From Bacteroidetes bacterium HGW-Bacteroidetes-10 (GTDB lineage Bacteria > Bacteroidota > Bacteroidia > Bacteroidales > UBA932), in NCBI GenBank assembly GCA_002842695.1, contig PHDT01000027.1, forward strand, positions 1 to 48,404: a stretch of DNA of 48,404 nucleotides. Reading direction: 5' to 3'. Below the pieces are notes generated by a model that had not been told where the DNA came from, did no database searches, and saw nothing but the letters and a program-made list of their open reading frames with translations. Positions 1 to 40,137 of the stretch are shown in pieces (position 1 is the stretch's first letter; each line of letters begins with the position of its first letter). The position numbers and the translations under genes were made by a program.

Positions 1-18
1 ATGTTGTTGGCCGCACTT

Positions 19-125
19 GCCTCAGAGGTAAAGTGTCAAATCATTCAATAACAGACTGTATAACAAGTCGGTTAATAATATGTAATCACCACACCTACAA
101 CTATTTGACACTTCACCTCTGAGGC
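19..125. repeat. Palindromic element, family A (divergent copy)
   Basis: Arms at 19-41 and 103-125 are inverted repeats matching at 22 of 23 positions. The arm tip CCTCAGAGG is itself a small palindrome (CCTC/GAGG). The interior begins AAAGTGTCAAATCATT and is recognisably related to the two other family A elements at 619-730 and 39980-40091, whose tip is CCCCTGGGG. No open reading frame or transposase lies inside. Confidence 0.85.
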
Positions 126-223
126 GCGGGCTCGAGGTGCGGGCTCAGCCACACGAGCACCGGAGGCAATTTAAAGGTGCCGGGCTGCACCCGGCGAGTG
201 CTTAGCCTCCGGCAACGAAATTT
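126..223. repeat. GC-rich spacer with REP-like hairpins
   Basis: This stretch contains CCGGAGGC (160-167) facing GCCTCCGG (205-212), and inside them GCCGGG (179-184) facing CCCGGC (190-195). The part at 176-214 is repeated at 39564-39604 and, inverted, at 561-601, with the stem kept and the loop changed (TGCA, TGCG, AAAT). This is the pattern expected of a REP-like short palindrome. No gene is seen. Confidence 0.7.
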
Positions 224-353
224 AACTCTGCCAGAGTTTTTAGCATGTTCTTGAATACTAGGTTATAACAATATTTCAAATAGGTGCTTTTATGATCCGA
301 AACTATCGCAACATCAAGTAAATCTGCAAGTTCGTAAAAACTCTGGCAGAGTT
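224..353. repeat. Palindromic element, family B, copy 1 (130 bp)
   Basis: The left arm AACTCTGCCAGAGTTTTTA and the right arm TAAAAACTCTGGCAGAGTT are inverted repeats. The tip AACTCTG-C-CAGAGTT is itself palindromic. Copies at 3222-3351 and 35745-35874 have the same 130-bp length. They share the left subterminal stretch (TTCTTGAAT.. to AACAATATTT) and the right one (CTGCAAGTTCG), while the middle differs. Confidence 0.9.
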
Positions 354-363
354 TCATTTTTAG

Positions 364-478
364 GACCCGCACGGCTGTAACGCACTGTAAGTCAACGATA
401 GCCACTTTGTCCCCGCGGATGATCCGCGGGGACAAAGTGCTACTTGCAGAAATACAATCACTTACAGCCGTGCGGGTC
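364..478. repeat. Palindromic element, family F, copy 1 (115 bp)
   Basis: Perfect 17-bp arms GACCCGCACGGCTGTAA (364-380) and its complement (462-478) enclose a second perfect 18-bp stem at 403-420/422-439 with a one-base loop. Both palindromes are centred on base 421. The outer palindrome continues imperfectly outward through TTTTTAGG and CCTAAAAA. A copy in opposite orientation lies at 39687-39801, also 115 bp. Confidence 0.92.
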
Positions 479-601
479 ACCTAAAAACGCCCACCCAAAA
501 CACACTCGAAACCCTTACCAGGCAACGAGAAACGATCTACTGCGTGCAAGCTTGAAAAACCTTTGCCGAAGGCTTACTCACGCCGGGCGCAGCCCGGCAC
601 C
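364..601 (+). repeat. 238-bp repeat module, copy 1
   Basis: The family F palindrome plus the flanking 479-601, including a GCCGGGC/GCCCGGC hairpin near 583-600, recurs in inverted orientation at 39564-39801. Both copies measure 238 bp. The flank is conserved without forming a gene in either copy. This is the longest repeated unit in the window. Confidence 0.85.
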
Positions 602-618
602 TTCTTAGCAGCCTGGCA

Positions 619-730
619 TTTACCCCTGGGGAAAAGTGTCAGATCGTTGATGAACAGGTCTTTATGCAAAAACAAGGTTTTTCACAACTAGTTGTATATG
701 TGATGTTTGACACTTTTCCCCAGGGGTAAA
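619..730. repeat. Palindromic element, family A, copy 1 (112 bp)
   Basis: Arms TTTACCCCTGGGGAAAAGTG and its complement flank about 70 bp. The arm tip CCCCTGGGG is palindromic. The copy at 39980-40091 has the same length and a similar interior (CAGATC.TTGATGA.CAGGTC). The right flank, AA.TG.CAAGCGC, is also found beside the family A remnant at 35878-35906. Confidence 0.9.
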
Positions 731-748
731 TTGGACAAGCGCCCATAC

Positions 749-873
749 ACATGTCAGCCTAAATTACATCTTCTTATATACCAGACTGTTATAAATCGTT
801 GCGTTACAAAAATTCTAGATTTAGAAATCGCAAACCCCTGTTTTACTGCGCATTGTAAATTAGGCTGACATGT
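749..873. repeat. Palindromic element, family C, copy 1 (125 bp)
   Basis: Inverted arms read ACATGTCAGCCTAAATTACA and TGTAAATTAGGCTGACATGT. The tip ACATGT is a palindrome. There are four copies in the window (also 3359, 22624 and 35908), all exactly 125 bp. A TCTAGA-like motif lies near the centre (814-819). The element ends about 48 bp before the thyA promoter box. Confidence 0.92.
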
Positions 874-920
874 GCGCCGCCGGAGTTCAGATTTCGTAGC
901 TCGCAAACCTCCATTTTCAC

Positions 921-928
921 TATATTTG
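921..928 (+). promoter_or_regulatory. Likely -7 box for thyA
   Basis: TATATTTG fits the Bacteroidota -7 consensus TAnnTTTG and lies 33 bp before the chosen thyA start. No clear -33 TTTG was found, so the assignment rests on one box and its position. Confidence 0.45.
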
Positions 929-961
929 TCTTCACAAACCTCTATTCAATCTACAACTCAC

Positions 962-1756
962 ATGAAAACATATCAAGACCTTCTCAGACATATAATGGAG
1001 ACCGGAACTCTTAAGGCAGACCGCACGGGGACGGGCACGAAGAGCGTGTTCGGGTACCAGATGCGGTTCAATCTGGAGGAGGGGTTTCCGCTTCTGACCA
1101 CAAAGAAGGTGCACCTGAAGTCAATAATTCATGAACTGCTCTGGTTCATTGCCGGAGATACCAACATTAAGTATCTTAAGGACAACGGGGTTTCAATCTG
1201 GGATGAGTGGGCCGACGAAAACGGCGAACTGGGCCCGGTTTACGGAAGGCAGTGGAGAGCGTGGAAAACAGCAGAAGGCGAAACGGTCGATCAGCTGTCG
1301 GCCTTGATAGAGGGAATCAAAAAGAATCCCGACTCCCGCAGGCACATTATAAGTGCGTGGAATCCTGGCGAGGTAGATAAAATGGCGCTGCCGCCGTGTC
1401 ATGCGATGTTTCAGTTTTATGTGGCAAACGGAAGGCTGAGTTGTCAGCTTTACCAGAGGAGTGCCGATGTCTTTCTGGGCGTGCCGTTCAATATAGCGTC
1501 GTATGCGCTGCTTACGATGATGGTGGCGCAGGTGTGCGGGCTGCGGCCGGGGGACTTTATCCACTCCTTTGGGGATGCGCATATCTATACCAACCATTTC
1601 GAGCAGGTGAACCTTCAGCTCTCAAGGGAGCCGCGGCCTCTGCCTGTAATGAAAATAAACCCGAACGTGACAAGCATATTCGGGTTTAAGTATGAAGACT
1701 TTGAACTTGAGGGGTACAATCCGCACCCCGGAATCAAAGCGCCTATTGCTGTGTAG
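962..1756 (+). CDS. thyA: Thymidylate synthase
   Basis: ThyA makes dTMP from dUMP in the cytoplasm, using methylene-tetrahydrofolate as one-carbon donor and reductant and releasing dihydrofolate. The 264-aa product has the same length as the E. coli enzyme. The nucleophile C146 lies in A-L-P-P-C-H, and the phosphate-binding arginines R21 (DRTGTGT) and R126 (DSRRHII) are present. The ATG at 962 was chosen because the protein then begins [11 protein letters not shown] as the family does; an in-frame start at 872 would add 30 unrelated residues that run across the promoter box and into the palindrome. The 3' end overlaps the convergent DUF4382 gene by 14 bp. folA, which regenerates tetrahydrofolate from its by-product, lies 1 kb downstream. 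Confidence 0.98.
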
Positions 1757-2549
1757 GAGCAGCGACCGGATCAAGGGTTATTGTTCCCAAGTTGTTTACC
1801 TGGCCCACTACAACTGCAGTATTTTCAAATGTTTTTCCAACATAGCCGGCAAGCGGTTCAAACACAATTTTGTATGAACCCGGGTCAACGCCCTTGAACA
1901 TGAACTTGCCATCCTCGGCAACAATTGTTGCCAGTGTATCTCCGTTGGCAATTGCCTTCACTGTTGGATTAGCTGCAAGAGGAAGGACGATTCCCCTTAT
2001 TGCGCCTGTGGCTGCCTCATTAAATGTGCGGATAACCGGTTTGAGTGAAAATCCGCCGTTTCCTTTTGCAACAATAGATCTTGCTGCGTCAAAGTCAATC
2101 CAGAGTTCGTAAACTACGCCCTCTTCGAGTTGAGCGTTAATCTGAAACTTAAGTCCGGATTGTTGTGCAGACGGAGTGTCCAGGTTATGGTAAACACCAT
2201 CAACTTTAACCCTGTTATTACTTCCAAGCACAAGTCTCATTTGTGATATGTTTCCGGCAGGGAGTTCAATTGTAGCCAGAAGAGTGTCAAGTCCGTTCCT
2301 GAAATCAAGAAGGTTGTAAACACCTTTATTTACCGGAAGACTCACCCAGCTTCCTTCGTTTTCATTGCTTGATGCGTGAATCTGCAGACCCTGCACATCA
2401 ATGAGCACCTCCTCGTAATTGGCAGGCGCATCGGTCAGTTTTACCACAAGTGTTGCCTTGTCGCTCGAAATCTCATCATTAGTACATGATGAAAGGCCCA
2501 GAACTATAGTTCCGGCCAGGATTAAATAAGTATAAAATCTCTTTTTCAT
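1743..2549 (-). CDS. DUF4382 family lipoprotein
   Basis: This 268-aa product has a lipoprotein signal peptide with the lipobox G-L-S-S-C at C22, followed by an acidic stretch. Residues of about 32-180 match the DUF4382 pattern ([20 protein letters not shown].., a short D-A-P motif near the start). The C-terminal part, about 188-262, looks like a carboxypeptidase-regulatory beta sandwich ([13 protein letters not shown]...[20 protein letters not shown]). It is probably membrane-anchored. No enzymatic residues are apparent and the function is unknown. The ATG at 2549 is preferred over an upstream in-frame start because it begins the signal peptide. The gene is divergent from folA, and its last 14 bp overlap thyA. 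Confidence 0.85.
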
Positions 2550-2679
2550 GATAATTTGCTTTTTGGTGTGTTCTGAAACTATACCGTTTTGGGACGCCTG
2601 CACCCTACTTCCGACTCCACCTCTTCCCCTCCGGCTAAAATCCCGTAATCATCTTTTTCAGAAAAACCCACGTAATAAG

Positions 2680-2687
2680 TATATTTG
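2680..2687 (+). promoter_or_regulatory. Likely -7 box for folA
   Basis: TATATTTG matches TAnnTTTG. A transcript starting just downstream would leave a leader of roughly 20 bases before the ATG at 2715, which also argues against the in-frame ATG at 2685 inside the box. Confidence 0.5.
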
Positions 2688-2714
2688 TACTACTATAACA
2701 AAGGTAAAGCAATT

Positions 2715-3203
2715 ATGATTTCAATAATAGTGGCAATCGCAACAAATGGCGCAATAGGAAAGGATAATCAGCTTTTATGGCACATATCCGAAGACCTGAA
2801 GTACTTCAAAAAAGTAACCGGAGGGCACACCGTCATCATGGGCAGAAAAACCTGGGAGTCGATAGGCCGGCCACTCCCCAACCGCCGCAACATAGTAATC
2901 AGCAGAACTCTTAAGGCCGATTCTCTCCCGGGCGCAGAGGTATTCGGCTCACTGGAGGAGGTCATAAAGTTGCTTCCAAAGGCCGATGAACACTTTGTGA
3001 TAGGCGGGGGCGAGATATACCGTCAGGCCCTTCCGCTTGCAGACAAACTCTACATTACCCAGGTTTACACCGCCGTACCCGACGCCGACACCTTCTTCCC
3101 GGATATCGACCCGGCCAGCTGGAACAAACTCACCGAAGAATATAATGAACGCGGCGAAAAATATCCACATCCGTTTGAGTTTGTGGTTTATGAGCGCAGG
3201 TAA
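2715..3203 (+). CDS. folA: Dihydrofolate reductase
   Basis: This NADPH-dependent enzyme reduces dihydrofolate to tetrahydrofolate and so recycles the product of ThyA. The protein is 162 aa, normal for bacterial DHFR. It shows the N-terminal strand MISIIVAIATNGAIGKDNQLLW, the active-site acid D27 in S-E-D-L, the cofactor motif V-I-M-G-R-K-T-W-E-S-I-G and the glycine pair in F-V-I-G-G-G-E-I-Y. The start at 2715 removes a 10-residue non-homologous extension that would begin inside the promoter. Two palindromic elements (families B and C) follow within 160 bp, then a hairpin. Confidence 0.97.
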   Translation: MISIIVAIATNGAIGKDNQLLWHISEDLKYFKKVTGGHTVIMGRKTWESIGRPLPNRRNIVISRTLKADSLPGAEVFGSLEEVIKLLPKADEHFVIGGGEIYRQALPLADKLYITQVYTAVPDADTFFPDIDPASWNKLTEEYNERGEKYPHPFEFVVYERR

Positions 3204-3221
3204 AACCGCCGGTGCCGGTGA

Positions 3222-3351
3222 AACTCTGCCAGAGTTTTTAGCAACTTCTTGAATGCTAGGCTATAACAATATTTAAAGCCTGTGAATTTTCGTTATTATT
3301 TAATTACAATGTGCTGACATTCTGCAAGTTCGTAAAAACTCTGGCAGAGTT
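3222..3351. repeat. Palindromic element, family B, copy 2 (130 bp)
   Basis: The arms are the same as in the elements at 224 and 35745, with the palindromic tip AACTCTGCCAGAGTT. It begins 18 bp after the folA stop and is separated by 7 bp from the family C element at 3359. Confidence 0.92.
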
Positions 3352-3358
3352 CTGCGCG

Positions 3359-3483
3359 ACATGTCAGTCTAATTTACATATCACTCATTATCTGAGCGTT
3401 ACGTTTTCTAATTCTAGATTTTCTGAAATTCCCTCGCAGCTAACTACCTGTTTTATAAACAAATGTAAATTAGGCTGACATGT
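3359..3483. repeat. Palindromic element, family C, copy 2 (125 bp)
   Basis: Arms ACATGTCAGTCTAATTTACA and TGTAAATTAGGCTGACATGT. The interior is the most divergent of the four. Its TCTAGA motif lies 54 bases from the start rather than 65 as in the others, yet the total length is still 125 bp. Confidence 0.9.
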
Positions 3484-3532
3484 GCGATTTTCGGTCGGGG
3501 ATTATAGACGGCATCTATACAGCGATAGATAA

Positions 3533-3559
3533 AACTCCCTCAACTTAATTGGGGGAGTT
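3533..3559. terminator. Hairpin, probable bidirectional terminator
   Basis: AACTCCCTCAA pairs with TTGGGGGAGTT (11 bp, one G-U) across the loop CTTAA. T-rich sequence follows on the plus strand (CTGTTTATAAT) and TTTTATC on the minus strand. It sits between folA with its palindromes and sodB. It could instead be a leader structure of sodB. Confidence 0.55.
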
Positions 3560-3601
3560 CTGTTTATAATGCATTACCAATAACGATTAATATTATCGAT
3601 T

Positions 3602-4321
3602 ATGAGAAAATTAATGCTGATGCTCTCTCTGGCACTTTTGCCGCTGGCAGTTTTTGCGGGAGAAGCAGACAACAAGACTAACAATAAAAATAAAATAACC
3701 ATGACAACTATAAACAAACTAGTATTTCCTGAATTACCATACGCTTACGATGCACTGGAGCCATTCATCGACAAGCTCACAATGGAGATCCACTACAGCC
3801 GCCACCACAAGGCATACTTCGACAACTTCATGAATGCAGTTAAAGGTACAGAGCTCGAGAACAAAACTCTTGACGAGGTATTCGCAAACATGAGCAAGTA
3901 CTCGCCTGCCGTTCGCAATAACGGAGGCGGATTCTTCAACCACGTTCTCTACTGGGAGGTGATGAAGGTAAACGGCGGAAAACCATCGGCAAAGCTCGAG
4001 GCTGCTATCGTAAAGGCGTTCGGTTCAATGGACGAACTTAAGAAGTTGTTCCTTGATGCAGGAAAGACACGTTTTGGAAGTGGCTGGGCATGGCTTAGCG
4101 TAAACGAGAAGGGCGAACTCTTTGTATCATCAACACCAAATCAGGACAACCCTCTTATGGATGTTGCCGAGAAAAAAGGCACCCCAATCCTGGGAATGGA
4201 TGTATGGGAGCACGCATACTACCTGAAATATCAGAACAAGCGCCCGGATTACACAGAGGCCTTCTGGAGCGTAATCAACTGGGAAGTAGTTTCAAAGAAA
4301 TACGAAGCACTTGTTAAATAG
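3602..4321 (+). CDS. sodB: Superoxide dismutase (Fe/Mn), exported form
   Basis: The 239-aa protein converts superoxide to oxygen and hydrogen peroxide. Metal ligands are visible as H64 (M-E-I-H-Y), H114 (F-F-N-H-V-L-Y-W), D200 and H204 (M-D-V-W-E-H-A). The order and spacing fit the iron/manganese family. Metal choice cannot be read securely: the G-G-G before F-F-N-H and the N-Q-D-N motif lean to manganese or a cambialistic enzyme. Unusually, an N-terminal signal peptide (MRKLMLMLSLALLPLAVFA, likely cut after A19) and a polar linker precede the enzyme, so this form should reach the periplasm. A second in-frame ATG at 3701, after an A-rich stretch, would give a 206-aa cytoplasmic enzyme starting MTTINKLVFPELPYAYDALEP. 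The gene is monocistronic with a terminator at 4459. Confidence 0.95.
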   Translation: MRKLMLMLSLALLPLAVFAGEADNKTNNKNKITMTTINKLVFPELPYAYDALEPFIDKLTMEIHYSRHHKAYFDNFMNAVKGTELENKTLDEVFANMSKYSPAVRNNGGGFFNHVLYWEVMKVNGGKPSAKLEAAIVKAFGSMDELKKLFLDAGKTRFGSGWAWLSVNEKGELFVSSTPNQDNPLMDVAEKKGTPILGMDVWEHAYYLKYQNKRPDYTEAFWSVINWEVVSKKYEALVK

Positions 4322-4384
4322 AAAAGTTTTAATTAAAGTTTTTAGTGATTTGAAGTTAAGGTGAGGCGAGAGATAAGGCTGACG

Positions 4385-4413
4385 AGCCATGCGGGGCTTC
4401 CCGCCCCGCGGCT
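4385..4413. repeat. GC-rich REP-like hairpin
   Basis: GCGGGGC and GCCCCGC pair across TTCCC, extended by AGCC/GGCT with a small bulge. It is far richer in GC than the surrounding AT-rich sequence and resembles the other REP-like hairpins in the window, though its exact sequence is not shared. Confidence 0.55.
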
Positions 4414-4458
4414 GCAAGGCAACCATTTTTGTATTTAAATTTTTCATAGTTAGGTTTG

Positions 4459-4485
4459 AAAGGTCCCCAATCCCAGGGGGCCTTT
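4459..4485 (+). terminator. Terminator of sodB
   Basis: AAAGGTCCCC pairs with GGGGGCCTTT (10 bp with one T-G pair) over a 7-base loop, followed by CTTTG. It lies 137 bp after the sodB stop, in the convergent gap. Confidence 0.7.
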
Positions 4486-4500
4486 CTTTGTGAAAACAAA

Positions 4501-4524
4501 GAGGCCGATCTCACGACCGGCCTC
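4501..4524 (-). terminator. Terminator of the Sus/metalloprotease operon
   Basis: GAGGCCG pairs with CGGCCTC. Read on the minus strand, the hairpin is followed by TTTGTTTTC. It lies 54 bp after the stop of the last gene of the locus. Confidence 0.7.
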
Positions 4525-4578
4525 GACAGAACCAAAAAATCAAACTAAACTAAAAAAACTTTTTTTTGGTGTCTATAG

Positions 4579-7290
4579 CTATTTTATGCCTTTATCAATT
4601 ACCTGTATCAGATAATTTATCTGGCTCTTTGTCAAGTCATCTGATGCTCTTCTTGATGCTTTGCCCAGTTGCTTTCTGAGCTCAAGAAGATGCTTGTAGA
4701 AAACTGGCGAAATATCCTGATTTGTGAGATACTTGATGGATGTAAGCACCTCAAAAGACGAGGATGGAGCAATATTATATCTTGATGAAGTCTGTGCAAG
4801 TGCATAAGCAATTCCGGCATGTAATGCTTTTACCGGTTCGGTTTCAATTTGATGTGGATAGCATCTCGCCATAAGATTCTGGTATGAATATTGGCCATCC
4901 GTCTCAACCAGCTGGAATGTTTTTGCATTTGCTGCTCTGGCCTTCTCAACTACAGGAAGTGCCGAGTTGTTCAGTAGTAATTGTGTCGTTGCAAACAATG
5001 CAGCCTTCTGTGTCTTGGTTGGTACATTCCCCCTGCTGATATTTTTCAGAGCAAAATTCAACATATCACCTATCATTTCATCAACTGTATATGGGCCATC
5101 ATAACTGGCCGGAACAGGTTCCGGATGAGTTTTCTGCTGAGTAAATGCTACCATGGCAATCCTCTGCAGTGGTAATGAAGCAAGATTGTTTGCAAAATAT
5201 GTAGAAAGGGATGCATTCATACCAGACATCTGAAGCAGCTTTTTATTATCAAGCCAATCCATATTGTCTGCCTGTTCCAGCATATATGCCAGAGTCTCTT
5301 TCTGAATTTTGCGGCTGACAGGCACATATGAGGGGGCAGGATCGCCTTCGTAGCGAGGGTTAATCTCAATACCACCAATATTGACCATCAGACTTCTGTA
5401 ATAGTCGTAGATTTTCAGGAAAATAAAGTCAACAAAAAGTTCACGATAAGATTCATCTACATTGTCTTTGTTTACCCAATCCGTTGCATTTTCACTAATA
5501 TACTTCAAGGTCTCCACTCCGTAGCGGGTAGAGGCAATTTTATCGTTTCCAAGGTCTTCTGCAGCCGAACGAGGGTCAAAATAGGCCGACCAGTTTTGTT
5601 GTTTTCCATAAAGGAACCTTCTGTCGCTTGCTTTCTCCTCTATCTTTTTGTTAAGAGCCTCTTTCTCATTTACACCTTGAGGGTACAACCTGTACAACCA
5701 GTCAATTGCATATAAATCATAGACGCCAAGACGGTCTGCTGTTAGCTTAACGCCTTTCTCAATATCTCCCGGACGAGCTACATAGTTGTATTTAATCTGG
5801 TCCATTACACTGGAGGTTATTCCCTCCCTTGCTGTAAATGAAGGAGAGCGGAGAGAATCGGTGTTCATCCATGAAGATGCTGCGAAATTTGCAGTAAGTC
5901 CAAGACAAAAACCTGCCTCTCTGGTAGTGGCCAGTTCAATTGCATCACACATGAGATTGTCAGGAAGTTCGTATGATCTTACCCCTGGTTCAACCTCTGC
6001 GGTCTGGTACAGTCTCTCTCTCTGCAGAGTAATTGGAGCGTCGCGGAAAAAGAGGATTGAGGCACTTAATATTTCACCAGTACGAGGGTCAATGTTAATT
6101 TGTCTGCCTATGTTTCTCGATGGTATCTGCGCATATCTTACAACGTTGTATGAGATATTTGCGGCATCAAACAGAGAATCTTTTGCTGCCGACGGGTAGT
6201 CATAAACCTCTATTACATCTTTGAAACCGGCACTTTCAAACGCTTTGTTCCATTTTAGAATACCTCTTTTAACAGCTGCTCTCCACGAAGGCGTAAACAG
6301 AGTGTCAACATAAAAGACAATTGGCTTTACCGGTTTGCTGAGCTCACCTCCAATGTATGCCTCCTTATTTTCCGGTTCAATGCGCCATCTGCTTGCAAAA
6401 TATTCGCTTTCAACACCCTGCTTTTCACTGCTGAAACGCTGAAAGTCTGTCACTTCTGTACCTATGCGATAATCTGCGACCCTTGGTGTAAAAGGTATTG
6501 CCGGAAGCCTGGAAATGGTTGTTTTAAGTTCTGCAGTAAGGTATTCACTGCCACCGGACTCCATTCCCAGAAAGAAGGTTTTAAATGTGTAGGTCATGTC
6601 GCTCAGAATTGAGACATTCTCTTCATATGCAGCAACATCTTTAAGTGAAGAGAGATCCTTGCTAAAGCTTGAGACCTTTTGGATAAACCCGCCAAAAGAG
6701 CTGGCGTTGAGTGTTCCAATATATTTGTTACCGCTCACGAAAAAGGAGGTGGCCTCAAAGACTACCGAAGTACTGTCCGGATTCCACGCAACAATGGGGG
6801 TTGAGTTTATTATTGGCGGAACAGAACTCTCTCTGAGAGCCTCCTTTATACCTTTATCGTTTTCGTTTGTAAGCTGAGGTGGATTCACCAATCTTATCTG
6901 TACCAGTGAATCAGTCTTTGAAAAGCTGATATGCTGCGGACGCGCAGTGCGCTGCCCCGCATAACTCAGCCCCATATTGCTTACATTCTCAATTACAGAG
7001 CTCATTAAGAAGCTTTCACCCATAAGTTTTACAGGAACTTCCAGATAGAGCTTGCTCTCAATTTTATGAAGGGTCATTATACCCTTGCTGGTTTTAACAT
7101 CCTTCTTTTTTTCAAAGAGCTTTTCATATGGACTTTTTGTGACTTTTGTAGTATCACTCTTTTCCTTTTTATCACTCTTTTCCTTCCTGGTGCTCTCCTT
7201 TGCTTTTTGGGCTGATATTTCCGGATTCCCCGAAACAGCAAGAGCAAAAGTCAAAGTTAAAACTGCAATATATCTATTTGTAATTTTCAT
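4579..7290 (-). CDS. Metalloprotease paralogue lacking the zinc site (DUF5117/DUF4953 type)
   Basis: This 903-aa exported protein has a signal peptide (residues 1-27, ending I-S-A-Q) and then a Lys/Ser-rich linker (about 30-52). It has the DUF5118/DUF5117-like N-terminal region and a metzincin-like domain. It is a tandem paralogue of the neighbouring 860-aa protease, with collinear motifs such as WRIEPENKEAY, PVKPIVFYVD, and the Met-turn region S-V-M-D-Q..YNYVARPGD. The zinc-binding helix is degenerate: residues 457-468 read R-E-A-G-F-C-L-G-L-T-A-N where the neighbour reads H-E-V-G-H-C-L-G-F-M-H-N. All three histidine ligands are therefore lost and only the glutamate remains. The reading frame is otherwise intact, so it is probably a folded pseudo-enzyme, perhaps a binding or regulatory partner. 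Only 2 bp separate it from the upstream protease stop. Confidence 0.85.
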   Translation of the reverse strand: MKITNRYIAVLTLTFALAVSGNPEISAQKAKESTRKEKSDKKEKSDTTKVTKSPYEKLFEKKKDVKTSKGIMTLHKIESKLYLEVPVKLMGESFLMSSVIENVSNMGLSYAGQRTARPQHISFSKTDSLVQIRLVNPPQLTNENDKGIKEALRESSVPPIINSTPIVAWNPDSTSVVFEATSFFVSGNKYIGTLNASSFGGFIQKVSSFSKDLSSLKDVAAYEENVSILSDMTYTFKTFFLGMESGGSEYLTAELKTTISRLPAIPFTPRVADYRIGTEVTDFQRFSSEKQGVESEYFASRWRIEPENKEAYIGGELSKPVKPIVFYVDTLFTPSWRAAVKRGILKWNKAFESAGFKDVIEVYDYPSAAKDSLFDAANISYNVVRYAQIPSRNIGRQINIDPRTGEILSASILFFRDAPITLQRERLYQTAEVEPGVRSYELPDNLMCDAIELATTREAGFCLGLTANFAASSWMNTDSLRSPSFTAREGITSSVMDQIKYNYVARPGDIEKGVKLTADRLGVYDLYAIDWLYRLYPQGVNEKEALNKKIEEKASDRRFLYGKQQNWSAYFDPRSAAEDLGNDKIASTRYGVETLKYISENATDWVNKDNVDESYRELFVDFIFLKIYDYYRSLMVNIGGIEINPRYEGDPAPSYVPVSRKIQKETLAYMLEQADNMDWLDNKKLLQMSGMNASLSTYFANNLASLPLQRIAMVAFTQQKTHPEPVPASYDGPYTVDEMIGDMLNFALKNISRGNVPTKTQKAALFATTQLLLNNSALPVVEKARAANAKTFQLVETDGQYSYQNLMARCYPHQIETEPVKALHAGIAYALAQTSSRYNIAPSSSFEVLTSIKYLTNQDISPVFYKHLLELRKQLGKASRRASDDLTKSQINYLIQVIDKGIK

Positions 7291-21853: not shown

Positions 21854-21995
21854 GGACCTTGCCTTACTTTTTCGCAAGTAATTGGCAATCTTACATATAA
21901 ACAGTGCAACTTTTCCAAAAACCTGAGATTTTGGAAAAGTTGCACGTGTTATATTACTGACTAACTGCTACTTGCGAAAAAGTAAGGCAAGGTCC
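21854..21995. repeat. Palindromic element, family E (142 bp)
   Basis: Perfect 27-bp inverted arms (21854-21880 and 21969-21995, starting GGACCTTGCCTTAC) enclose a second perfect 17-bp stem (21904-21920 and 21929-21945, starting GTGCAACTTTTCC). Both are centred at 21924.5. A GC-rich palindrome (GCGCCCGGGCGC, within about 21820-21858) abuts the left end. It fills the convergent gap after the symporter. Confidence 0.93.
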
Positions 21996-22623: not shown

Positions 22624-22748
22624 ACATGTCAGCCTAAATTACAATTACAACACTGTCAGGTGTTTACAAATTGTCTTCGACAGATTTTTCCAGAATTGAA
22701 AATTGCATACAGCTGATTTACAGGCATATGCAAATTAGGCTGATATGT
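22624..22748. repeat. Palindromic element, family C, copy 3 (125 bp)
   Basis: The arms are ACATGTCAGCCTAAATTACA and a right arm with two substitutions (TGCAAATTAGGCTGATATGT). The interior differs from the other copies but keeps a TCCAGA motif 65 bases in. It is followed 11 bp later by the right half of a family D element. Confidence 0.88.
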
Positions 22749-22759
22749 GCGATTTTTAA

Positions 22760-22823
22760 TCTGAAAAGTTTGTGATTTGTAATGCTCTCACAATCTGTTT
22801 ATTAACAGAAATTGCGACGCAGA
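22760..22823. repeat. Half of a family D palindromic element
   Basis: The sequence from CTGAAAAGTTTGTG to TTAACAGAAATTGCGACGCA matches the right half of the elements at 26374-26500 and 39346-39472. No matching left half precedes it; a family C element is found there instead. This suggests deletion or replacement at the element centre. Confidence 0.75.
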
Positions 22824-26373: not shown

Positions 26374-26500
26374 TCTGCGCCGCAATTTCTGTTAAATAAT
26401 TGATTATTAGCATATAACAAAGCACAAACTCTTCATGTTGAAAAGGTTGTGCTTTTTAAATGACTATATAACTGCGTGTTAACAGAAATTGCGGCGCAGA
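26374..26500. repeat. Palindromic element, family D, copy 1 (127 bp)
   Basis: Arms TCTGCGCCGCAATTTCTGTT and its complement; the tip TGCG-C-CGCA is palindromic. An inner 15-bp stem (26421-26435 and 26439-26453, 13 of 15 pairs) has the same centre, 26437, and is followed by TTTTT on the plus strand, so it may terminate NAGLU transcripts. The element ends one base before the yfhO stop codon. Confidence 0.9.
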
Positions 26501-34433: not shown

Positions 34434-35701
34434 TAAAATTTTACAGAAGAGTCTCATTGATGTTCAAACTTATGCTTGAGAGCATAATGTTTGCTTTCGG
34501 CTCGCTCAAAGGCGACAAGTTTCGTACATTCCTCTCTTTGTTTGGAGTCAGCATTGGAATTTTTTCAATCGTGACGGTATTTACTGCCATTGATGCCCTT
34601 CAGCAGAATGTTCAATCCGGCCTGAACAGCTTTGGCGGAACAACTGTATATGTTCAGCAGTTTCCCTTTGCTCCCCCTGAAGGTGAGGAGTACAAATGGT
34701 GGGAGTACATGAACAGGCCAAGGCCCAAGTATGAAGAGTATACATTCCTTAAGAGTCAGTCCAAAACACTCGATGCTGTTGCCTATGTTGTTTTCACCAA
34801 CAAGACTCTAAAATATAAGAGGAATTCATTTAACGGCGGATTCATCACTGCTGCTACTGCAGAGTGGGGAGATATTGCCAATGTTGAGATTGATAAAGGA
34901 AGATATTTTTCTGCTTTCGAAAACCAGTCTGCGATTCCGGTTATAATTCTTGGCTATGAAGTTGCCGGCTCACTTTTTGGAGATGAAGATCCGCTTAATA
35001 AAATTGTCAAGATTGGAAGCGCGAGCGCCAGGGTTATTGGAGTTCAGAAGAAAGCAGGTGAGAGTATTGTAAATATCTTTGATACAGATAACTCAATTCT
35101 TATTACATACACTTTTGCAGGAACAATACTAAATGTAAAAAGCTTAGAGAGTATGATCTGTCTTAAGCCACAGGACACCGCAGACAGAGAGGAGTTTATT
35201 CAGGAGATGAGACAGCTGCTCAGATCTGCAAGAAGGCTCAAACCTGTTCAGAAAGATAACTTTGCACTAAATGAAATGACATTTCTGCTCAACCAGACCA
35301 AATCAATTTTTGGCGGAATAAACCTGGCCGGCTGGATTATCGGAGGATTTTCAATTCTTATAGGCGGATTCGGTATTGCCAATATCATGTTTGTATCTGT
35401 GAAAGAGCGTACAAACCTCATAGGAATTCAGAAAGCACTCGGAGCCAAAAAATATATGATTCTTACACAATTCCTCGCCGAGGCTGCTGTGCTAGCACTT
35501 GCCGGAGGAGCTATGGGTCTGCTGATGGTCTTCGGGGTGGTAATGGCTCTTCAGGGCAATGAGTCCTTCCCGATGGAACTCAGCGTCTACAATATTATCC
35601 GCGGACTGATGATATCATCTGTAATTGGTATAGTTTCCGGACTACTGCCAGCCTGGACAGCCGCCAACCTCAACCCGGTTGACGCTATCAACTCAAAATA
35701 A
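34430..35701 (+). CDS. MacB/FtsX-type ABC transporter permease
   Basis: This 423-aa inner-membrane permease has the usual order: one helix (about 35-55, F-L-S-L-F-G-V-S-I-G-I-F-S-I-V), a large periplasmic MacB-like domain (about 60-290), and the FtsX domain with three helices (about 305-420). The FtsX part contains G-G-F-G-I-A-N-I-M-F-V-S-V-K-E-R-T and G-I-Q-K-A-L-G-A. Such proteins pair with an ABC ATPase for export or lipoprotein/peptide movement. No ATPase gene is adjacent; the partner must be encoded elsewhere. The 4-bp overlap with mutS shows co-transcription without an evident functional link. An internal start at 34460 is possible. Confidence 0.88.
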   Translation: MIKFYRRVSLMFKLMLESIMFAFGSLKGDKFRTFLSLFGVSIGIFSIVTVFTAIDALQQNVQSGLNSFGGTTVYVQQFPFAPPEGEEYKWWEYMNRPRPKYEEYTFLKSQSKTLDAVAYVVFTNKTLKYKRNSFNGGFITAATAEWGDIANVEIDKGRYFSAFENQSAIPVIILGYEVAGSLFGDEDPLNKIVKIGSASARVIGVQKKAGESIVNIFDTDNSILITYTFAGTILNVKSLESMICLKPQDTADREEFIQEMRQLLRSARRLKPVQKDNFALNEMTFLLNQTKSIFGGINLAGWIIGGFSILIGGFGIANIMFVSVKERTNLIGIQKALGAKKYMILTQFLAEAAVLALAGGAMGLLMVFGVVMALQGNESFPMELSVYNIIRGLMISSVIGIVSGLLPAWTAANLNPVDAINSK

Positions 35702-35717
35702 CTTGCCAGGCAAATAG

Positions 35718-35744
35718 ACATACGCTAAAGTTTCCCACGTGCAA
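35718..35744. repeat. Left arm of a family G palindrome, unpaired
   Basis: ACATACGCTAAAGTTTCCCA and the following CGTGCAA match the outer arms of the composite at 39884-40116. No opposite arm is found here; the sequence runs directly into a family B element. Confidence 0.7.
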
Positions 35745-35874
35745 AACTCTGCCAGAGTTTTTAGCAAGTTCTTGAATATTAGGCTAGAACAATATTTAAA
35801 GAAGGTGATTTTTCGGCATTAAAAAATTACTATATCTTGATATTCTGCAAGTTCGTAAAAACTCTGGCAGAGTT
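35745..35874. repeat. Palindromic element, family B, copy 3 (130 bp)
   Basis: Arms AACTCTGCCAGAGTTTTTA and its inverse, identical in length to the copies at 224 and 3222. Left subterminal TTCTTGAATATTAGGCTAGA and right CTGCAAGTTCG are conserved. It lies in the convergent gap between the permease and rsmA. Confidence 0.92.
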
Positions 35875-35877
35875 TTG

Positions 35878-35906
35878 CCCCAGGGGTAAAATGTCAAGCG
35901 CATTTG
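35878..35906. repeat. Family A terminal remnant
   Basis: CCCCAGGGGTAAAATGTCAA and the following GCGCATTT match, inverted, the left end and flank of the family A element at 39964-39992. Only one end is present, wedged between family B and family C elements. Confidence 0.65.
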
Positions 35907-35907
35907 C

Positions 35908-36032
35908 ACATGTCAGCCTAATTTATATTTGCCTATATAGCAAGTTGTTAGCAATATGGAATTTTAACAAAATCTAGAATTAGAAATTGCATATAATTGA
36001 TATTCAACGTAGTGTAAATTAGGCTGACATGT
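35908..36032. repeat. Palindromic element, family C, copy 4 (125 bp)
   Basis: Arms ACATGTCAGCCTAATTTATA and TGTAAATTAGGCTGACATGT, with TCTAGA 65 bases in as in copy 1. It ends 28 bp before the rsmA stop codon. Confidence 0.92.
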
Positions 36033-36060
36033 GTGACCTGGCTCAGGCCATTTACCCTAA

Positions 36061-36834
36061 TTATTTGTTGGGATAGATAAGTTTTGTGAGTTCAATGAAC
36101 TCCTCAACCGATAACTGTTCGGGTCTCTGACCAAACAGGTAGCTGTCCGGGACAGGTTTGCCATCCATAATTGATTTGACTGAATTTCTCACAGCCTTAC
36201 GTCGTTGATTAAATGAAGCCTTGATGACCCTTTTAAAAAGGACTTCGTCACAGCCAAGGTCAGTCCGGCTGTTGCGCTTAAGCCTTATCACTGCCGATTT
36301 AACTTTTGGAGGGGGAATAAAACTTCCCGGCTCGACTATAAAGAGGAACTCAATATCATACCAGGCCTGAAGAAGTACAGAGAGAATTCCGTAGTTCTTG
36401 TTGCCCGGAGGAGATGCAAGCCTTTCTGCCACCTCTTTCTGAAGCATACCAACTATCTGTGGAATCTTTTCCCTGTAATCAAGTGCCTTGAAAAAAATCT
36501 GCGAAGAGATATTATAGGGGAAGTTTCCAATAATTGAGAAATTTCCCGGAAACATTTCATTAAGGTCCATCTTTAGAAAGTCTCCTCCTATGAGGTTGCT
36601 TCCAAGCTGAGGATAGTGAATCTTCAGGTATGCCACAGACTCTTCATCAATCTCAGCAGCCTTGAGAGTGATTCTCTCATCTTTTATCAGATACTGGGTG
36701 AGGACACCTGTGCCGGGACCAACCTCAAGCACATCCTTTGCAAGGGTTACATCCAGTGAATCCACAATCCTTTCCGCTATCTTCTGATCCTTCAGAAAAT
36801 GCTGCCCGAGAGCCTTTTTAGCTTTTACATACAT
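36061..36834 (-). CDS. rsmA: 16S rRNA adenine dimethyltransferase (KsgA)
   Basis: RsmA dimethylates two adjacent adenines near the 3' end of 16S rRNA with S-adenosylmethionine, a late step of 30S assembly. The 257-aa protein shows K-A-K-K-A-L-G-Q-H-F-L, the SAM-binding loop E-V-G-P-G-T-G-V-L-T, the catalytic motif G-N-F-P-Y-N-I-S and the C-terminal helical domain (F-N-Q-R-R-K-A-V-R-N-S). The ATG at 36834 was chosen because an earlier in-frame start (36861) would overlap the end of the upstream gene and adds no conserved residues. It lies 20 bp after the EEP-family gene and is probably co-transcribed with it. Confidence 0.97.
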   Translation of the reverse strand: MYVKAKKALGQHFLKDQKIAERIVDSLDVTLAKDVLEVGPGTGVLTQYLIKDERITLKAAEIDEESVAYLKIHYPQLGSNLIGGDFLKMDLNEMFPGNFSIIGNFPYNISSQIFFKALDYREKIPQIVGMLQKEVAERLASPPGNKNYGILSVLLQAWYDIEFLFIVEPGSFIPPPKVKSAVIRLKRNSRTDLGCDEVLFKRVIKASFNQRRKAVRNSVKSIMDGKPVPDSYLFGQRPEQLSVEEFIELTKLIYPNK

Positions 36835-36854
36835 GCGGCAAAGGTAAGCAAATT

Positions 36855-37970
36855 TTACCAACTCCTTTTTATGGTGAGCATAATGGGCAGATGGTCGCTT
36901 ACACCCCAGTTGTATCTGGGGCCCACAAATGTTCTCCTTGGTTTTCTCCCGGTAAATTTACGATCCTCCTCCATCAGATATGGATGGGCAAGAATCTCCA
37001 TTGCCCCCTCCCCGCAAAATATCGGTTCATTTACATTCAGCAGATTAGGAGATACCAGAAAGTGGTCAATCAGCTCCCACACACCCATAAATTTGATACT
37101 CCCCTGAATCTTGTTTTTTCTCACAGGCTTTGTTGTTAACGATGACTCTTCATCCGAAAAGTACTTCATGGAGGCAAAAAGCGACAAGTTTTTCAAATAA
37201 GGGATGGTGGCGGCGGCGGAGGCCTCAGGTTCTTCATTGAAATCCCCTGTAACAACTATGTTAGCAGACCGGTTTTTGAAGAAAATTGAATCCGTAACCC
37301 TGCCCAGCGCCTCCGCCGCCGCCCTCCTTGCCCCCTCGGTTGCTCTCTCTCCCCCAAACTTCGAAGGCCAGTGATTTATGAATAAATGCAGGGTATCCAG
37401 CCCGTCAAGCACCCCCTTTGAGTAGAGAATCAGCCTTGTCCTGAGAAGAGAATCGGCAGCTATTCTTATAAACTGAGTCGAAACCGGGGTATATCTCTCC
37501 CTGATGTAAATCAAGGCAACATCAATTCCTCGTCTGTCCGGAGAGTCGCGGTGAATTACCCCGTAACCATATGCCGATAGCGGAGTTTCCATGAGCAATT
37601 GATTTATAACATATTTGTTTTCTACCTCTGCAAATGATGCTATTACAGGCATATTGTCTCCGGAAAGCAGCAAAATATATTTTGCAATCGCATTCCGCTT
37701 TGCATTGAACTTTTTCCGGCTCCAGTGCATCTCTCCCATTGGGGTAAAATCATCATCGGCAGTAGACAGGTCGTCTCGGGTATCAAAATAATTCTCAAGG
37801 TTCCAGAATAGAATCCTGCAATCCTCCCGCTTTACCACAGGCTTAGTATTTATACCCCGGCTCTGAGAAAGTCCCCTGCCGGGATAACAGAAAAAAAATG
37901 GAATCACTGCCAGCATCCCGATAAAGTAAAGCCGGCCCGGCATCAGCTCTGCTCCCACCCACCTTTTCAT
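36855..37970 (-). CDS. Exported endonuclease/exonuclease/phosphatase family protein
   Basis: This 371-aa protein has a hydrophobic N-terminus (about 12-36, probable signal peptide) and then an EEP fold. Motifs include F-W-N57-L-E-N-Y-F-D, the metal ligand E115 in S-F-A-E-V-E-N, D-V-A-L-I-Y, I-N-H-W-P-S-K, G-D-F-N-E-E-P and the C-terminal S-D-H-L-P-I. All catalytic positions of a DNase I-like phosphoesterase are present. The substrate may be nucleic acid, inositol phosphate or lipid; sequence cannot tell. Export suggests nutrient scavenging. The gene precedes rsmA. Confidence 0.87.
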   Translation of the reverse strand: MKRWVGAELMPGRLYFIGMLAVIPFFFCYPGRGLSQSRGINTKPVVKREDCRILFWNLENYFDTRDDLSTADDDFTPMGEMHWSRKKFNAKRNAIAKYILLLSGDNMPVIASFAEVENKYVINQLLMETPLSAYGYGVIHRDSPDRRGIDVALIYIRERYTPVSTQFIRIAADSLLRTRLILYSKGVLDGLDTLHLFINHWPSKFGGERATEGARRAAAEALGRVTDSIFFKNRSANIVVTGDFNEEPEASAAATIPYLKNLSLFASMKYFSDEESSLTTKPVRKNKIQGSIKFMGVWELIDHFLVSPNLLNVNEPIFCGEGAMEILAHPYLMEEDRKFTGRKPRRTFVGPRYNWGVSDHLPIMLTIKRSW

Positions 37971-38141
37971 CCCGCAACCAAAAAAGCGTTTAAAATTTTA
38001 CTGTATGAATCAGGGCAATTAATTATCCATAATTCAGCATAAAACTAAGCACAAGCATCAATCCGCACCATAATCGGCTTTCACAATTATCTGATTCTAA
38101 ATATGTTTTATTGCATTTTAGATTTAATCCCAAATTTTAAC

Positions 38142-38149
38142 TATTTTCG
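38142..38149 (+). promoter_or_regulatory. Possible -7 box of ychF
   Basis: TATTTTCG differs from TAnnTTTG by one base and lies 28 bp before the ATG at 38178, inside an AT-rich divergent gap (37971-38177) that holds no repeats. Confidence 0.35.
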
Positions 38150-38177
38150 CCCCCTCAAATTATATAAAAATAGAATT

Positions 38178-39281
38178 ATGGCACTTAAATGCGGGATAGT
38201 GGGGCTTCCAAATGTTGGTAAATCAACACTCTTCAATTGTATCAGCTCCGGAAAAGCGCAATCTGCAAATTTCCCTTTCTGTACAATTGAACCGAATATT
38301 GGCTCTACCATTGTTCCCGATGAAAGGCTGCAGGTACTCGAAAAACTTGTTAAGCCAAATCGCGTTGTTCCGGCAACTGTTGAAATTGTAGATATTGCCG
38401 GCCTTGTGAAGGGCGCGAGCAAAGGTGAAGGATTGGGCAACCAGTTCCTGGGAAACATTCGCGAAACAGACGCTATCATACATGTGCTCCGCTGCTTTGA
38501 CGATCCAAACATTGTCCATGTAGACGGAAGCGTTAATCCCGTAAGAGACAAAGAGATAATTGACACCGAGCTTCAGATAAAAGACCTTGACACTGTCGAA
38601 AGCAGAATCAGCAAAGTTCAGAAACAGGCTCAGACCGGCGGAGATAAAAACGCCAAAAGAATGTACGACATTCTTGTTAAGTTTAAAGAGGTTCTCGAGC
38701 AGGGCAAATCTGCCAGAACCGTTAAATTTGAAAATGCCGAGGATGAGAAGATGTCAAAAGAGCTTTTCCTGCTGACAAACAAGCCGGTTCTCTATGTTTG
38801 CAATGTCGATGAAGCCTCCGCAAAGGATGGCAACAAATATGTCGATATGGTAAAAGAGGCAATAAAGGGAGAAGATGCAGAAATGCTTGTAGTTGCGGCA
38901 AAAATCGAGTCAGAAATTGCCGAACTTGAAAGCTTCGAAGAGCGCGAGATGTTCCTGGCCGAACTTGGACTTGAGTCGTCAGGAGTATCAAGGGTTATCC
39001 GCAGCGCATACTCACTGCTTAACCTCGAAACCTACTTCACAGCCGGAGTTCAGGAGGTACGCGCATGGACCTACCCAAAAGGAGCCAAGGCTCCTCAGGC
39101 CGCCGCTGTAATCCACACAGACTTCGAAAAAGGCTTTATCCGTGCAGAGGTTATTAAGTATGACGACTTCGTTAAATACGGCTCGGAAAACGGCTGTAAA
39201 GAGGCCGGTAAACTCGGCGTCGAAGGCAAAGAGTACATCGTTCAGGACGGCGACATCATGCACTTCCGCTTTAACGTCTAA
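38178..39281 (+). CDS. ychF: Ribosome-associated ATPase YchF (OLA1 family)
   Basis: This Obg-like P-loop protein binds ribosomes and prefers ATP over GTP. The 367-aa product has G1 (G-L-P-N-V-G-K-S-T-L-F-N), the switch region (F-C-T-I-E-P-N), D-I-A-G-L-V-K-G-A-S-K-G-E-G-L-G-N, a degenerate G4 (C-N-V-D-E, instead of N-K-x-D, which explains ATP use), and a C-terminal TGS domain (about 280-366). The start at 38178 gives the family N-terminus MALKCGIVGLPN. An in-frame start at 38103 would begin upstream of the promoter box. A 920-bp repeat-filled gap follows. Confidence 0.97.
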   Translation: MALKCGIVGLPNVGKSTLFNCISSGKAQSANFPFCTIEPNIGSTIVPDERLQVLEKLVKPNRVVPATVEIVDIAGLVKGASKGEGLGNQFLGNIRETDAIIHVLRCFDDPNIVHVDGSVNPVRDKEIIDTELQIKDLDTVESRISKVQKQAQTGGDKNAKRMYDILVKFKEVLEQGKSARTVKFENAEDEKMSKELFLLTNKPVLYVCNVDEASAKDGNKYVDMVKEAIKGEDAEMLVVAAKIESEIAELESFEEREMFLAELGLESSGVSRVIRSAYSLLNLETYFTAGVQEVRAWTYPKGAKAPQAAAVIHTDFEKGFIRAEVIKYDDFVKYGSENGCKEAGKLGVEGKEYIVQDGDIMHFRFNV

Positions 39282-39345
39282 ACAGCACAGCCGGCACCAC
39301 GGCAAGCGTCCACAACGAGCACCCCGGCAGGCGACAAGAGACGTT

Positions 39346-39472
39346 TCTGCGCCGCAATTTCTGTTAACGCACAGTATTACAACTATTTACAAAACACAAA
39401 CTTTTCAACCTGAAGAGTTTGTGTTTTGCATTTTATTTATATTCAACTAGTTAACAGAAATTGCGGCGCAGA
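39346..39472. repeat. Palindromic element, family D, copy 2 (127 bp)
   Basis: The arms equal those at 26374-26500 (TCTGCGCCGCAATTTCTGTT). The inner 17-bp stem at 39391-39407 and 39411-39427 pairs at 16 of 17 positions and has the same centre (39409) as the whole element. TTTT follows the stem on both strands, so it may act as a bidirectional terminator after ychF. Confidence 0.92.
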
Positions 39473-39476
39473 TTTG

Positions 39477-39524
39477 TCGCGCGCGCAGCGCCGTACCTCC
39501 ACCGGCTGCGAAGCGGACGGTACC
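39477..39524. repeat. REP-like GC-rich hairpin unit, copy 3
   Basis: CGCGCGCGCAGCGCCGTACC matches the shared motif at 22001, followed by an imperfect stem bounded by GTACC (39493-39497) and GGTAC (39519-39523). Confidence 0.6.
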
Positions 39525-39563
39525 ATATATGAGAAGCTTGGAGATACCATTACAAAGTTTAAT

Positions 39564-39801
39564 GGTGCCGGGCAAATGCCCGGCGGGAGTTAGCCTTTGG
39601 CAAAGGTTTTTCAAGCTTGCGTGCAGAAGATCGTGTTCATTGCCTGGTAAAGGTTTCGAGTGTGTTTTTAATGTCAAATTTTCACTCACCCGTACCGCTG
39701 TAACTAATTGGATATCTGCAAGTAGCACTTTGTCTCCGCGGATGATCCGCGGGGACAAAGTGACTCTCGTTGATTTACAGCGCGTTGCAGCCGTACGGGT
39801 C
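39564..39801 (-). repeat. 238-bp repeat module, copy 2 (inverted)
   Basis: This is the inverse of 364-601. It comprises the REP-like GGTGCCGGGC..GCCCGGC hairpin (39564-39584), a conserved flank with TTTTTCAAGCTTGCG and AGGTTTCGAGTGTGTTTTTA, and the family F palindrome. The two copies lie 39 kb apart with diverged but equal-length sequence. Confidence 0.85.
39687..39801. repeat. Palindromic element, family F, copy 2 (115 bp)
   Basis: Outer arms CACCCGTACCGCTGTAA and its near-inverse (39785-39801), with the palindrome CCGTACGG in the right tip, surround an inner stem (39726-39762) differing at one base from copy 1. Both are centred on 39744. Confidence 0.9.
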
Positions 39802-39910
39802 GTTAACTGAAATCTTAGGAAACTGTTTGCTAATCTGGGTTTGGTGAAATTATTACTGACGGAGCTTTGTTCATGAAAAACTAACATGCTAAAGTTTCCC
39901 GCGTGCAACC

Positions 39911-39963
39911 CACTGAAGTGACCCCAAAAGTTTTTTGTCTAACTTTTGGGGTTCACTTCAGTG
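39911..39963. repeat. 53-bp hairpin resembling abutted IS ends (family H)
   Basis: CACTGAAGTGACCCCAAAAG.. is followed, after a T-rich loop, by its near-exact inverse with one extra base. The tip CACT-GA-AGTG is palindromic. The arm CCCCAAAAGTTAGAC resembles the ends of IS3-family insertion sequences from memory; no transposase is present. Confidence 0.7.
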
Positions 39964-39979
39964 TCAATGCACTTGACAT

Positions 39980-40091
39980 TTTACCCCTGGGGAAAAGTGT
40001 CAGATCATTGATGATCAGGTCTTTATATAAAAACGAAGTATTCCGGAACTAATTGTATATGTGTGGTTTGACACTTTTCCCCAGGGGTAAA
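39980..40091. repeat. Palindromic element, family A, copy 2 (112 bp)
   Basis: Arms TTTACCCCTGGGGAAAAGTG and inverse, the same length as the copy at 619-730, with a shared interior. Confidence 0.92.
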
Positions 40092-40137
40092 TTGCACGTG
40101 GGAAACTTTAGTATGTCTCTTTTTCCACAACAAAAAA

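Follow-up and report, generated by a model that had tools for sequence, protein, structure and literature searches.

Fixed-Length Inverted-Arm Elements on a Bacteroidales Contig Are Very Probably REPINs, and Five of Their Seven Families Flank a RAYT Gene of Their Own

Introduction

Why does one stretch of bacterial DNA carry several families of palindromic elements that look unrelated in sequence, each keeping its own length almost to the base? The question is raised by contig PHDT01000027.1 (C42) of Bacteroidetes bacterium HGW-Bacteroidetes-10, analyzed here over all of its 48,404 nucleotides (the window). The host genome (G000) has 2,409,956 bases in 42 contigs, and the completeness of the assembly is 93.5%. 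Seven families of inverted-arm elements are present in the window, as follows: A, 130 bp, three copies; B, 125 bp, four copies; C, 127 bp, two copies and a right half; D, 112–114 bp, two copies; E, 115 bp, two copies; F, 107 bp, one copy; and G, 142 bp, one copy. There is also a 53-bp hairpin. An initial annotation, made from the letters of the window, had located the same elements with the same lengths, the 107-bp family F being its "divergent relative", and had proposed that one mechanism serves several sequence-unrelated families, with mobilization by enzymes encoded elsewhere in the genome as one option. The elements are indeed there, and an inverted-repeat (IR) finder, permitting spans of 40–190 bp and run over stretches of the host genome, gives identical element lengths.

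Repetitive extragenic palindromic (REP) sequences are found as inverted doublets with conserved spacing, called REPINs (REP doublets forming hairpins), which are thought to be mobilized by REP-associated tyrosine transposases (RAYTs, or TnpA_REP); every tnpA_REP is paired with a REP family of its own, and a genome may contain several of them, as described in passages of PMC3116915, PMC6006769, PMC3733652, PMC8049555, and PMC8266576. We propose, with high confidence, that the elements of the window are REPINs, that is, pairs of inverted REPs at a set spacing that are non-autonomous and depend on RAYTs, which are Y1 HUH nucleases, for copying in trans.

Five RAYT Genes, Each Flanked on Both Sides by One Family

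A search of the host genome for PF01797 (Y1 transposase) finds six places, four of them over the cut-off, and five of the six are RAYT genes. Each of these five has a full element on either side, both of one family, and the family differs from RAYT to RAYT. The RAYT L081 is flanked on both sides by family B, L082 by family C, L083 on contig C19 by family F, L084 (C29:9484–10238) by family A, and L085 on contig C1 by family G. Five of the seven main families are, then, paired with a RAYT of their own in the host genome, and it is this arrangement that leads us to read the elements as REPINs. The proposal of one mechanism with enzymes elsewhere is borne out by these genes, as is the suggestion that RAYTs with matching ends be looked for. 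The contig C42 itself has no Y1 transposase, which agrees with the earlier statement that the window lacks a transposase (other transposase types were not searched for).

The host RAYT open reading frames (ORFs) are 198–322 residues long, that of the A RAYT being split over two frames. Enzyme and element can overlap: the final stretch of the F RAYT ORF reads through the F REP in frame (L083:2236–2301), and the RAYT stop codon of L082 falls within an arm. REP_Tyr_transpos is the best NCBIfam family for all five proteins, and four of the five pass the Pfam PF01797 cut-off. The AlphaFold model of the B RAYT (predicted local distance difference test, pLDDT, 88) has as its best PDB match the E. coli TnpA_REP–REP complex, 4er8 (E 5e-7), followed by IS608 and ISDra2. 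The match covers 140 columns, and the model continues with a confident helical C-terminal region, residues 203–264.

The remaining PF01797 match, on contig C20 (L086), was rejected as a RAYT: it is below the cut-off, has an internal stop, and overlaps an ORF of 375 residues which, by eye, we take to encode a PHP-type protein.

The elements share further features with REPINs. They consist of inverted REPs at a conserved distance, with conserved ends and a less conserved spacer, and are predicted to form hairpins as single-stranded DNA (ssDNA). They are extragenic in the window, families A and B have many copies genome-wide, and the cognate RAYTs of A, B, C, F, and G are flanked by the same REP.

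Dispersal and Fixed Length of the Families

The arm of family A (AACTCTGCCAGAGTTTTTA) occurs 31 times forward and 31 times in reverse across the host genome, and that of family B (ACATGTCAGCCTAAWTTACA) 27 and 26 times; the reversed-pattern controls give 0 + 0 for both. Pairing of the A arms used 50 exact rows and one of 12 one-mismatch rows, the 11 omitted being the same tip palindrome on the other strand (10) or a lone tip (1). It yields 24 pairs, 19 of 130 bp and five of 129 bp, with three rows unpaired. For family B, where all 53 rows were used, 25 of 25 pairs measure 125 bp and three rows are unpaired. In the sister genome (G010, 82% complete), 21 of the 22 B copies in the fetched stretches are 125 bp long and one is 126 bp.

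For families C to G, the counts refer to 249 kb of host-genome stretches, the window included, that were picked for having matches, and so are not genome-wide. The modal length is kept by 16 of 19 copies of C (127 bp; arm TCTGCGCCGCAATTTCTGTTAAC), 11 of 12 of D (arm TTTACCCCTGGGGAAAAGTGTCA), 26 of 27 of E (115 bp; arm GACCCGYACGGCTGTAAC), and all three of G. For F (arm GCCTCAGAGGTAAAGTGTCAAAT), 9 of 10 copies are 106 bp long, a count in which the loose F pattern may admit one copy of D; the window copy is 107 bp.

Length is kept while sequence changes. Mean identity among copies is 83–99% in the arms and 48–75% in the interiors, the lowest pair being at 29%. On a FastTree tree, the interiors of 26 B copies require 519 substitutions by parsimony and no length change; those of the 19 modal A copies require 338, five further copies being one base shorter. 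The initial annotation had described this combination of exact length and diverging interiors, and had named arms without a fixed spacing genome-wide as the outcome that would speak against it; that outcome is not seen, since A and B recur at fixed length.

What Keeps the Length

When folded as ssDNA, all seven window elements tested are more stable than all 200 of their shuffles (z −5.1 to −14.7). A hairpin kept by pairing along its whole length was considered, and was dropped for six families because the interior halves do not covary: the row-shuffle p values for A, B, C, D, and F are 0.39, 0.62, 0.73, 0.66, and 0.19, and that for G, with three copies, is 0.68. It follows that the length of these families is kept by something other than pairing along the whole hairpin. 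The explanation stays for E, whose halves do covary (p 0.0005). The central stem of E has two unrelated sequence types, found in 24 and 5 of 29 copies (26 from the host and three from G010); 13–18 of its 18 pairs are kept across both types, and all 29 copies measure 115 bp. Since covariation is limited to E and lengths are fixed everywhere, the inter-arm distance is the constraint that all families share, and C, E, and G add a central stem to it. We infer that this distance may be read by a two-ended enzyme complex.

A mechanism can be proposed along these lines. The RAYT would bind the tip hairpin as ssDNA and cut beside it by means of its tyrosine. If two ends are needed at a set distance, then only copies with the right spacing would be propagated. 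The lack of sequence resemblance between families would follow from each RAYT reading a REP of its own.

The families A and D have conserved left/right differences just inside the arms, which give the elements a polarity.

RAYTs and Their REPs Across the Genus

By profile, RAYTs are found in 22 of 25 genus genomes, the host included, and in all 12 of good quality. Of the 48 genus RAYT loci, 40 were aligned, leaving four with a stop and four that are near-duplicate or partial; 63 of 80 named RAYT loci (L104–L166), from other phyla, were left out of the analysis. All 40 aligned proteins have NHxH and have Y[IL] at the tyrosine motif, 38 have NP, and eight have the form YIxNNP. None has W[QE] between NHxH and the tyrosine, and none has YIH.

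The association of RAYTs with flanking repeats extends beyond the host. In 46 of the 48 loci there was enough flank for a left–right comparison, and a repeat shared between the two flanks with a score of at least 15 is found at 30 of these 46 loci, against 16 of 368 mismatched flank pairs. Where the direct score and the inverted score are 20 or more apart, the repeat in common is direct in 11 of 11 loci, which are not all independent and include one (L182) with no recognized element. RAYT identity correlates with the score of the shared repeat (Mantel r 0.46, p 0.0005, n 29 of 46).

The same chromosomal address can carry different REPs. The F-type RAYT locus has both neighbor genes in common with L171, L173, L175, L204, L205, and L209. 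The REPs at this address vary by species, being GCCTCAGAGG at four loci, TTTTCCCCAGGGG at L204, and CAGCCCTATGC at L205, and within each of the six loci the left REP agrees with the right one. We interpret this as concerted turnover of the REPs at a fixed RAYT address. The C-type RAYT locus likewise has both neighbors in common with L172, L179, L181, L185, and L199; at this address, L189 alone showed elements on both sides in the automatic IR search.

A genome of this kind bears on how RAYTs and REPs stay matched while both change. With five enzyme–element pairs in one small genome, the host is a good natural test case for the joint change of enzyme and target. The relatives with RAYTs at corresponding addresses but different REPs are natural swaps for testing which part of the enzyme reads the hairpin, and they bear as well on the reason for the fixed spacing and on the survival of REPIN populations after their enzyme is gone.

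Two further loci concern the families that have no RAYT in the host. In G016, two 115-bp E elements come after the RAYT L206, on one side only. The RAYT L195 of G019 has a D-like REP, and its address is common to L202 (G016) and L203 (G015), whose REPs differ. By eye, the neighbors of L195 look like genes for a symporter and a dipeptidyl-peptidase. At this address in the host genome and in G010, where a D RAYT was sought, the gap holds other elements and no RAYT.

Gain, Loss, and Exchange at Orthologous Sites

The gap between an ABC permease gene and ksgA is 359 bp in the window, where it holds one A (35745–35874) and one B, and 0–44 bp in 19 of the 19 relatives that have the gene pair; three further relatives do not have the pair in the fetched stretch. 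Sites that are empty in relatives, proposed as a check in the initial annotation, are thus at hand.

The sister genome matches the window with roughly 80–96% DNA identity across matched stretches. The C element at 26374–26500 is absent from its site in G010, while G (21854–21995, with a long central stem) and B (22624–22748) with the abutting right half of C (22753–22823) are common to both. In the cluster at 39.3–40.1 kb, C (39346–39472, with a central stem) and E are shared, and G010 has a B where the window has the 53-bp hairpin (family I, 39911–39963, found with the IR finder) and a D (39977–40094). The E element of this cluster (39687–39801) and its G010 counterpart (L265:1395–1509) agree in arms, flanks, and length (115 bp) but not in the central stem, which is unrelated and has been exchanged as a whole.

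An enzyme may also disappear. The host has a B–RAYT–B arrangement (C29, L167:1246–2462) where G010 has a single B (L272), much like a solo long terminal repeat. The interior of the solo B matches the left B of the host, and its right flank matches the flank past the right B. Since the RAYT L168 of G017 has the same right neighbor, loss of the RAYT in G010 is a simpler reading than insertion in the host. No RAYT is found by profile in G010, and its B population is retained. A RAYT would accordingly seem deletable, perhaps by recombination between the flanking REPINs, with the REPIN population persisting. Single elements may decay as well: the lone B arm at C36:25420 of the host corresponds to a full B in G010 (L279:838–962), and from this comparison the arm appears to be the remnant of a deleted REPIN.

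Weighing the REPIN Interpretation

Several results weigh against reading the elements as REPINs, or against reading all of them so. In addition to the lack of covariation in six families, GT[AG]G is absent from both strands of arms A to I and present solely in the reverse of a further arm, J. The five host RAYTs score 35.8–48.1 with REP_Tyr_transpos, all below the 80-bit cut-off, and one of the five is below the PF01797 cut-off. A sequence profile built from the five retrieves no RAYT from the PDB at E ≤ 1, so that only the fold is matched. Families D, E, H, I, and J have no RAYT in the host genome by the PF01797 search of the 93.5% complete assembly. The D arm differs by 4–7 mismatches of 25 from the REPs of seven RAYT loci, the F-type loci included; because it is about equally near to F-type REPs and to the REP of L195, D is not tied to one RAYT. 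Across the genus, the left and right flanks fail to share a repeat scoring 15 at 16 of the 46 loci, and at some of the 30 loci that do share one, the repeat is a simple hairpin or another sequence and not a REPIN. For 19 of 48 loci the automatic IR search places matching elements on each side of the RAYT, although it missed the left B of the host's own B RAYT. Finally, the A RAYT is split between frames, yet A, with 24 paired copies, is far commoner in the host than in G010.

The alternative that survives best, though we consider it unlikely, is that these are structured elements maintained by the host in place, for 3′-end processing, termination, or DNA topology, the nearby RAYTs reflecting an old origin only. 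Its evidence comes in part from 15 orthologous pairs of host and G010, in which the arms differ least, at 19 of 608 positions (3.1%), as compared with 144 of 1261 (11.4%) in the interiors and 272 of 1702 (16.0%) in the flanks; two of the 15 pairs show a one-base difference in length. Because the copies were located through their arms, however, the divergence of the arms is understated, and their conservation in place is a hint of selection or conversion, not proof. The pairs that the E stem retains in 29 copies across two unrelated sequences also favor a host role, as does position: all 17 window elements counted are intergenic, with 0 of 1983 element bases within coding sequence in a window that is about 90% coding (the test covers the window). 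Selection on structure, one of the options in the initial annotation, thus has partial support, from the concerted change of the E stem and, subject to the same detection bias, from the arms. Against a host role, the families vary by species. Matches to the window cluster at E ≤ 1e-4 number 46 in G010, 1–5 each in G004, G015, G016, G017, and G019, and zero in 18 other relatives. Family A has 24 pairs in the host versus two pairs and four lone arms in G010, a genome that is 82% complete. And every RAYT is surrounded by elements of its own family.

It is very improbable that the elements are ordinary miniature inverted-repeat transposable elements (MITEs) of DDE insertion sequences elsewhere in the genome. 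Terminal inverted repeats, small size, high copy number, and the lack of a gene of their own would suit MITEs, and 8 of 12 copies of D have a 2–3 bp repeat abutting the arm pattern. No clear target-site duplication is seen, however: abutting direct repeats are 0–3 bp in 121 of 121 paired copies and 0 in 87 of these, and it is Y1 HUH RAYTs that the families are found beside, in a search that did not extend to DDE transposases. Weakest is the idea of invertible DNA segments, with recombinase sites in inverted orientation as in phase-variable promoters, for although the arms are inverted and Bacteroidota often use short inverted repeats in this way, the dozens of copies of A and B, the presence or absence of elements between species, and the association with RAYTs leave it hardly any room.

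Relation to Known REPIN–RAYT Systems

The REPINs and RAYTs of Pseudomonas fluorescens SBW25, as presented in passages of PMC3116915, are alike in having two inverted REPs with conserved ends, a less conserved spacer, and fixed spacing; they too are extragenic and RAYT-linked, with several groups per genome and singlets as remnants. The elements studied here differ from them in that arms A to G have no GT[AG]G, W[QE] is missing from the 40 aligned RAYTs, the modeled RAYT has a helical C-terminal region, full REPINs stand on both sides of each RAYT of their own, and there are seven families in 2.4 Mb. The region near the tryptophan of W[QE] has been suggested to help recognize the GTAG guide (in a passage of PMC6006769). 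The lack of W[QE] in all 40 RAYTs corresponds with the lack of GT[AG]G in arms A to G.

Closest by description among published entries is TnpA_REP subclass 2.6 of the Bacteroidetes (group 5 of Bertels), which in the relevant passages of PMC6006769 likewise has no GT[AG]G guide and is flanked by atypical structures with copies elsewhere in the genome. The table entry for this subclass gives WQ, YIH[QN]NP, and a median of 179 residues, which the motifs reported above and the longer ORFs of the host do not match, and the passages of PMC6006769 on subclass 2.6 do not describe its structures as length-locked REPINs. Subclass 2.4 (group 4; Cyanobacteria, Bacteroidetes, and others), from the same passages, shares NH[IFV]H, and its YIxNNP fits 8 of our 40; its WQ and GT[AG]G REPs, some of them within the gene, are not seen here. 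TIRtrons, with their TIRYTs, are also similar, according to passages of PMC3733652: RAYT-like genes lie between long inverted repeats unrelated to GTAG REPs, some repeats form moderate families, and the flanks can overlap gene ends. The TIRtron species named in that text are not Bacteroidetes, and in the present case a genus-wide comparison ties the enzymes to their own repeats. The CGTC tag reported for Bacteroidetes in a passage of PMC3733652 is not found by eye in arms A to G. With the IS200/IS605 elements (IS608, ISDra2), there is a common Y1 HUH fold and hairpin ends; unlike those elements, the present repeats are scattered through the genome with no gene attached, the RAYT genes found numbering one per family.

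RAYTs and palindromes, those of Bacteroidetes included, are covered in passages of PMC6006769 and PMC3733652; among the titles listed in searches of an open-licence library, none concerned length-locked REPINs of Bacteroidales. Judged by its sequences, the system appears to work like a REPIN–RAYT system and has the structure by which REPINs are defined. The GT[AG]G at the REP foot, which marks canonical GTAG REPs and the REPtrons of groups 2–3, is lacking in arms A to I, and the motifs of subclasses 2.6 and 2.4 are not matched. We put at about even odds a broader proposal, namely that a separate Bacteroidales REPIN–RAYT lineage reads REPs without a GTAG guide. In such a lineage, RAYTs at one address, between the same neighbor genes, would change REP specificity over time, the REPs on both sides switching together between species; a RAYT and one REPIN would be lost as a cassette, leaving a solo REPIN; and the central stem could be exchanged whole at unchanged element length.

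Other Features of the Window

The elements not placed above are, for family A, those at 224–353 and 3222–3351, both 130 bp; for B, 749–873, 3359–3483, and 35908–36032, each 125 bp; for D, 618–731, with a 112-bp core; for E, 364–478, with the central stem CACTTTGTCCCCGCGG; and for F, 19–125. No strand is assigned to any of the elements.

The genes of the window, with limits set by hand and overlapping ORFs judged spurious put aside, presumably encode SusC/D-type proteins, a FecR/sigma pair, and the products of thyA, mutS, and ksgA, among others, named from the translations alone. These genes and the nearest named RAYT relatives indicate a Bacteroidales host. An Rfam scan of the window finds zero families that reach the gathering score, and a tRNA search of the window finds zero genes. 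Positions 1–79 of the window, within the F element, are identical over all 79 bases to C21:65912–65990, so that two contig ends carry the same sequence and the assembly seems broken at such repeats.

The 53-bp hairpin may represent abutted ends of IS3-type elements. Together with the D element next to it, it is enclosed by the outer inverted arms of family J (CTAAAGTTTCCCRCGTGCA; 39889–40111), which makes a nested composite. The J arms also surround another site in the host genome, C17:59603–59773, again as a nested REPIN-like composite. A further arm, H, has a single occurrence, on C36. A tail of about 120 bp (480–606 and 39560–39690) goes with family E in many copies, and since it recurs, in matches to 364–606 and in an insert in G010 (L270), the unit that moves or is duplicated may often be a 240-bp composite.

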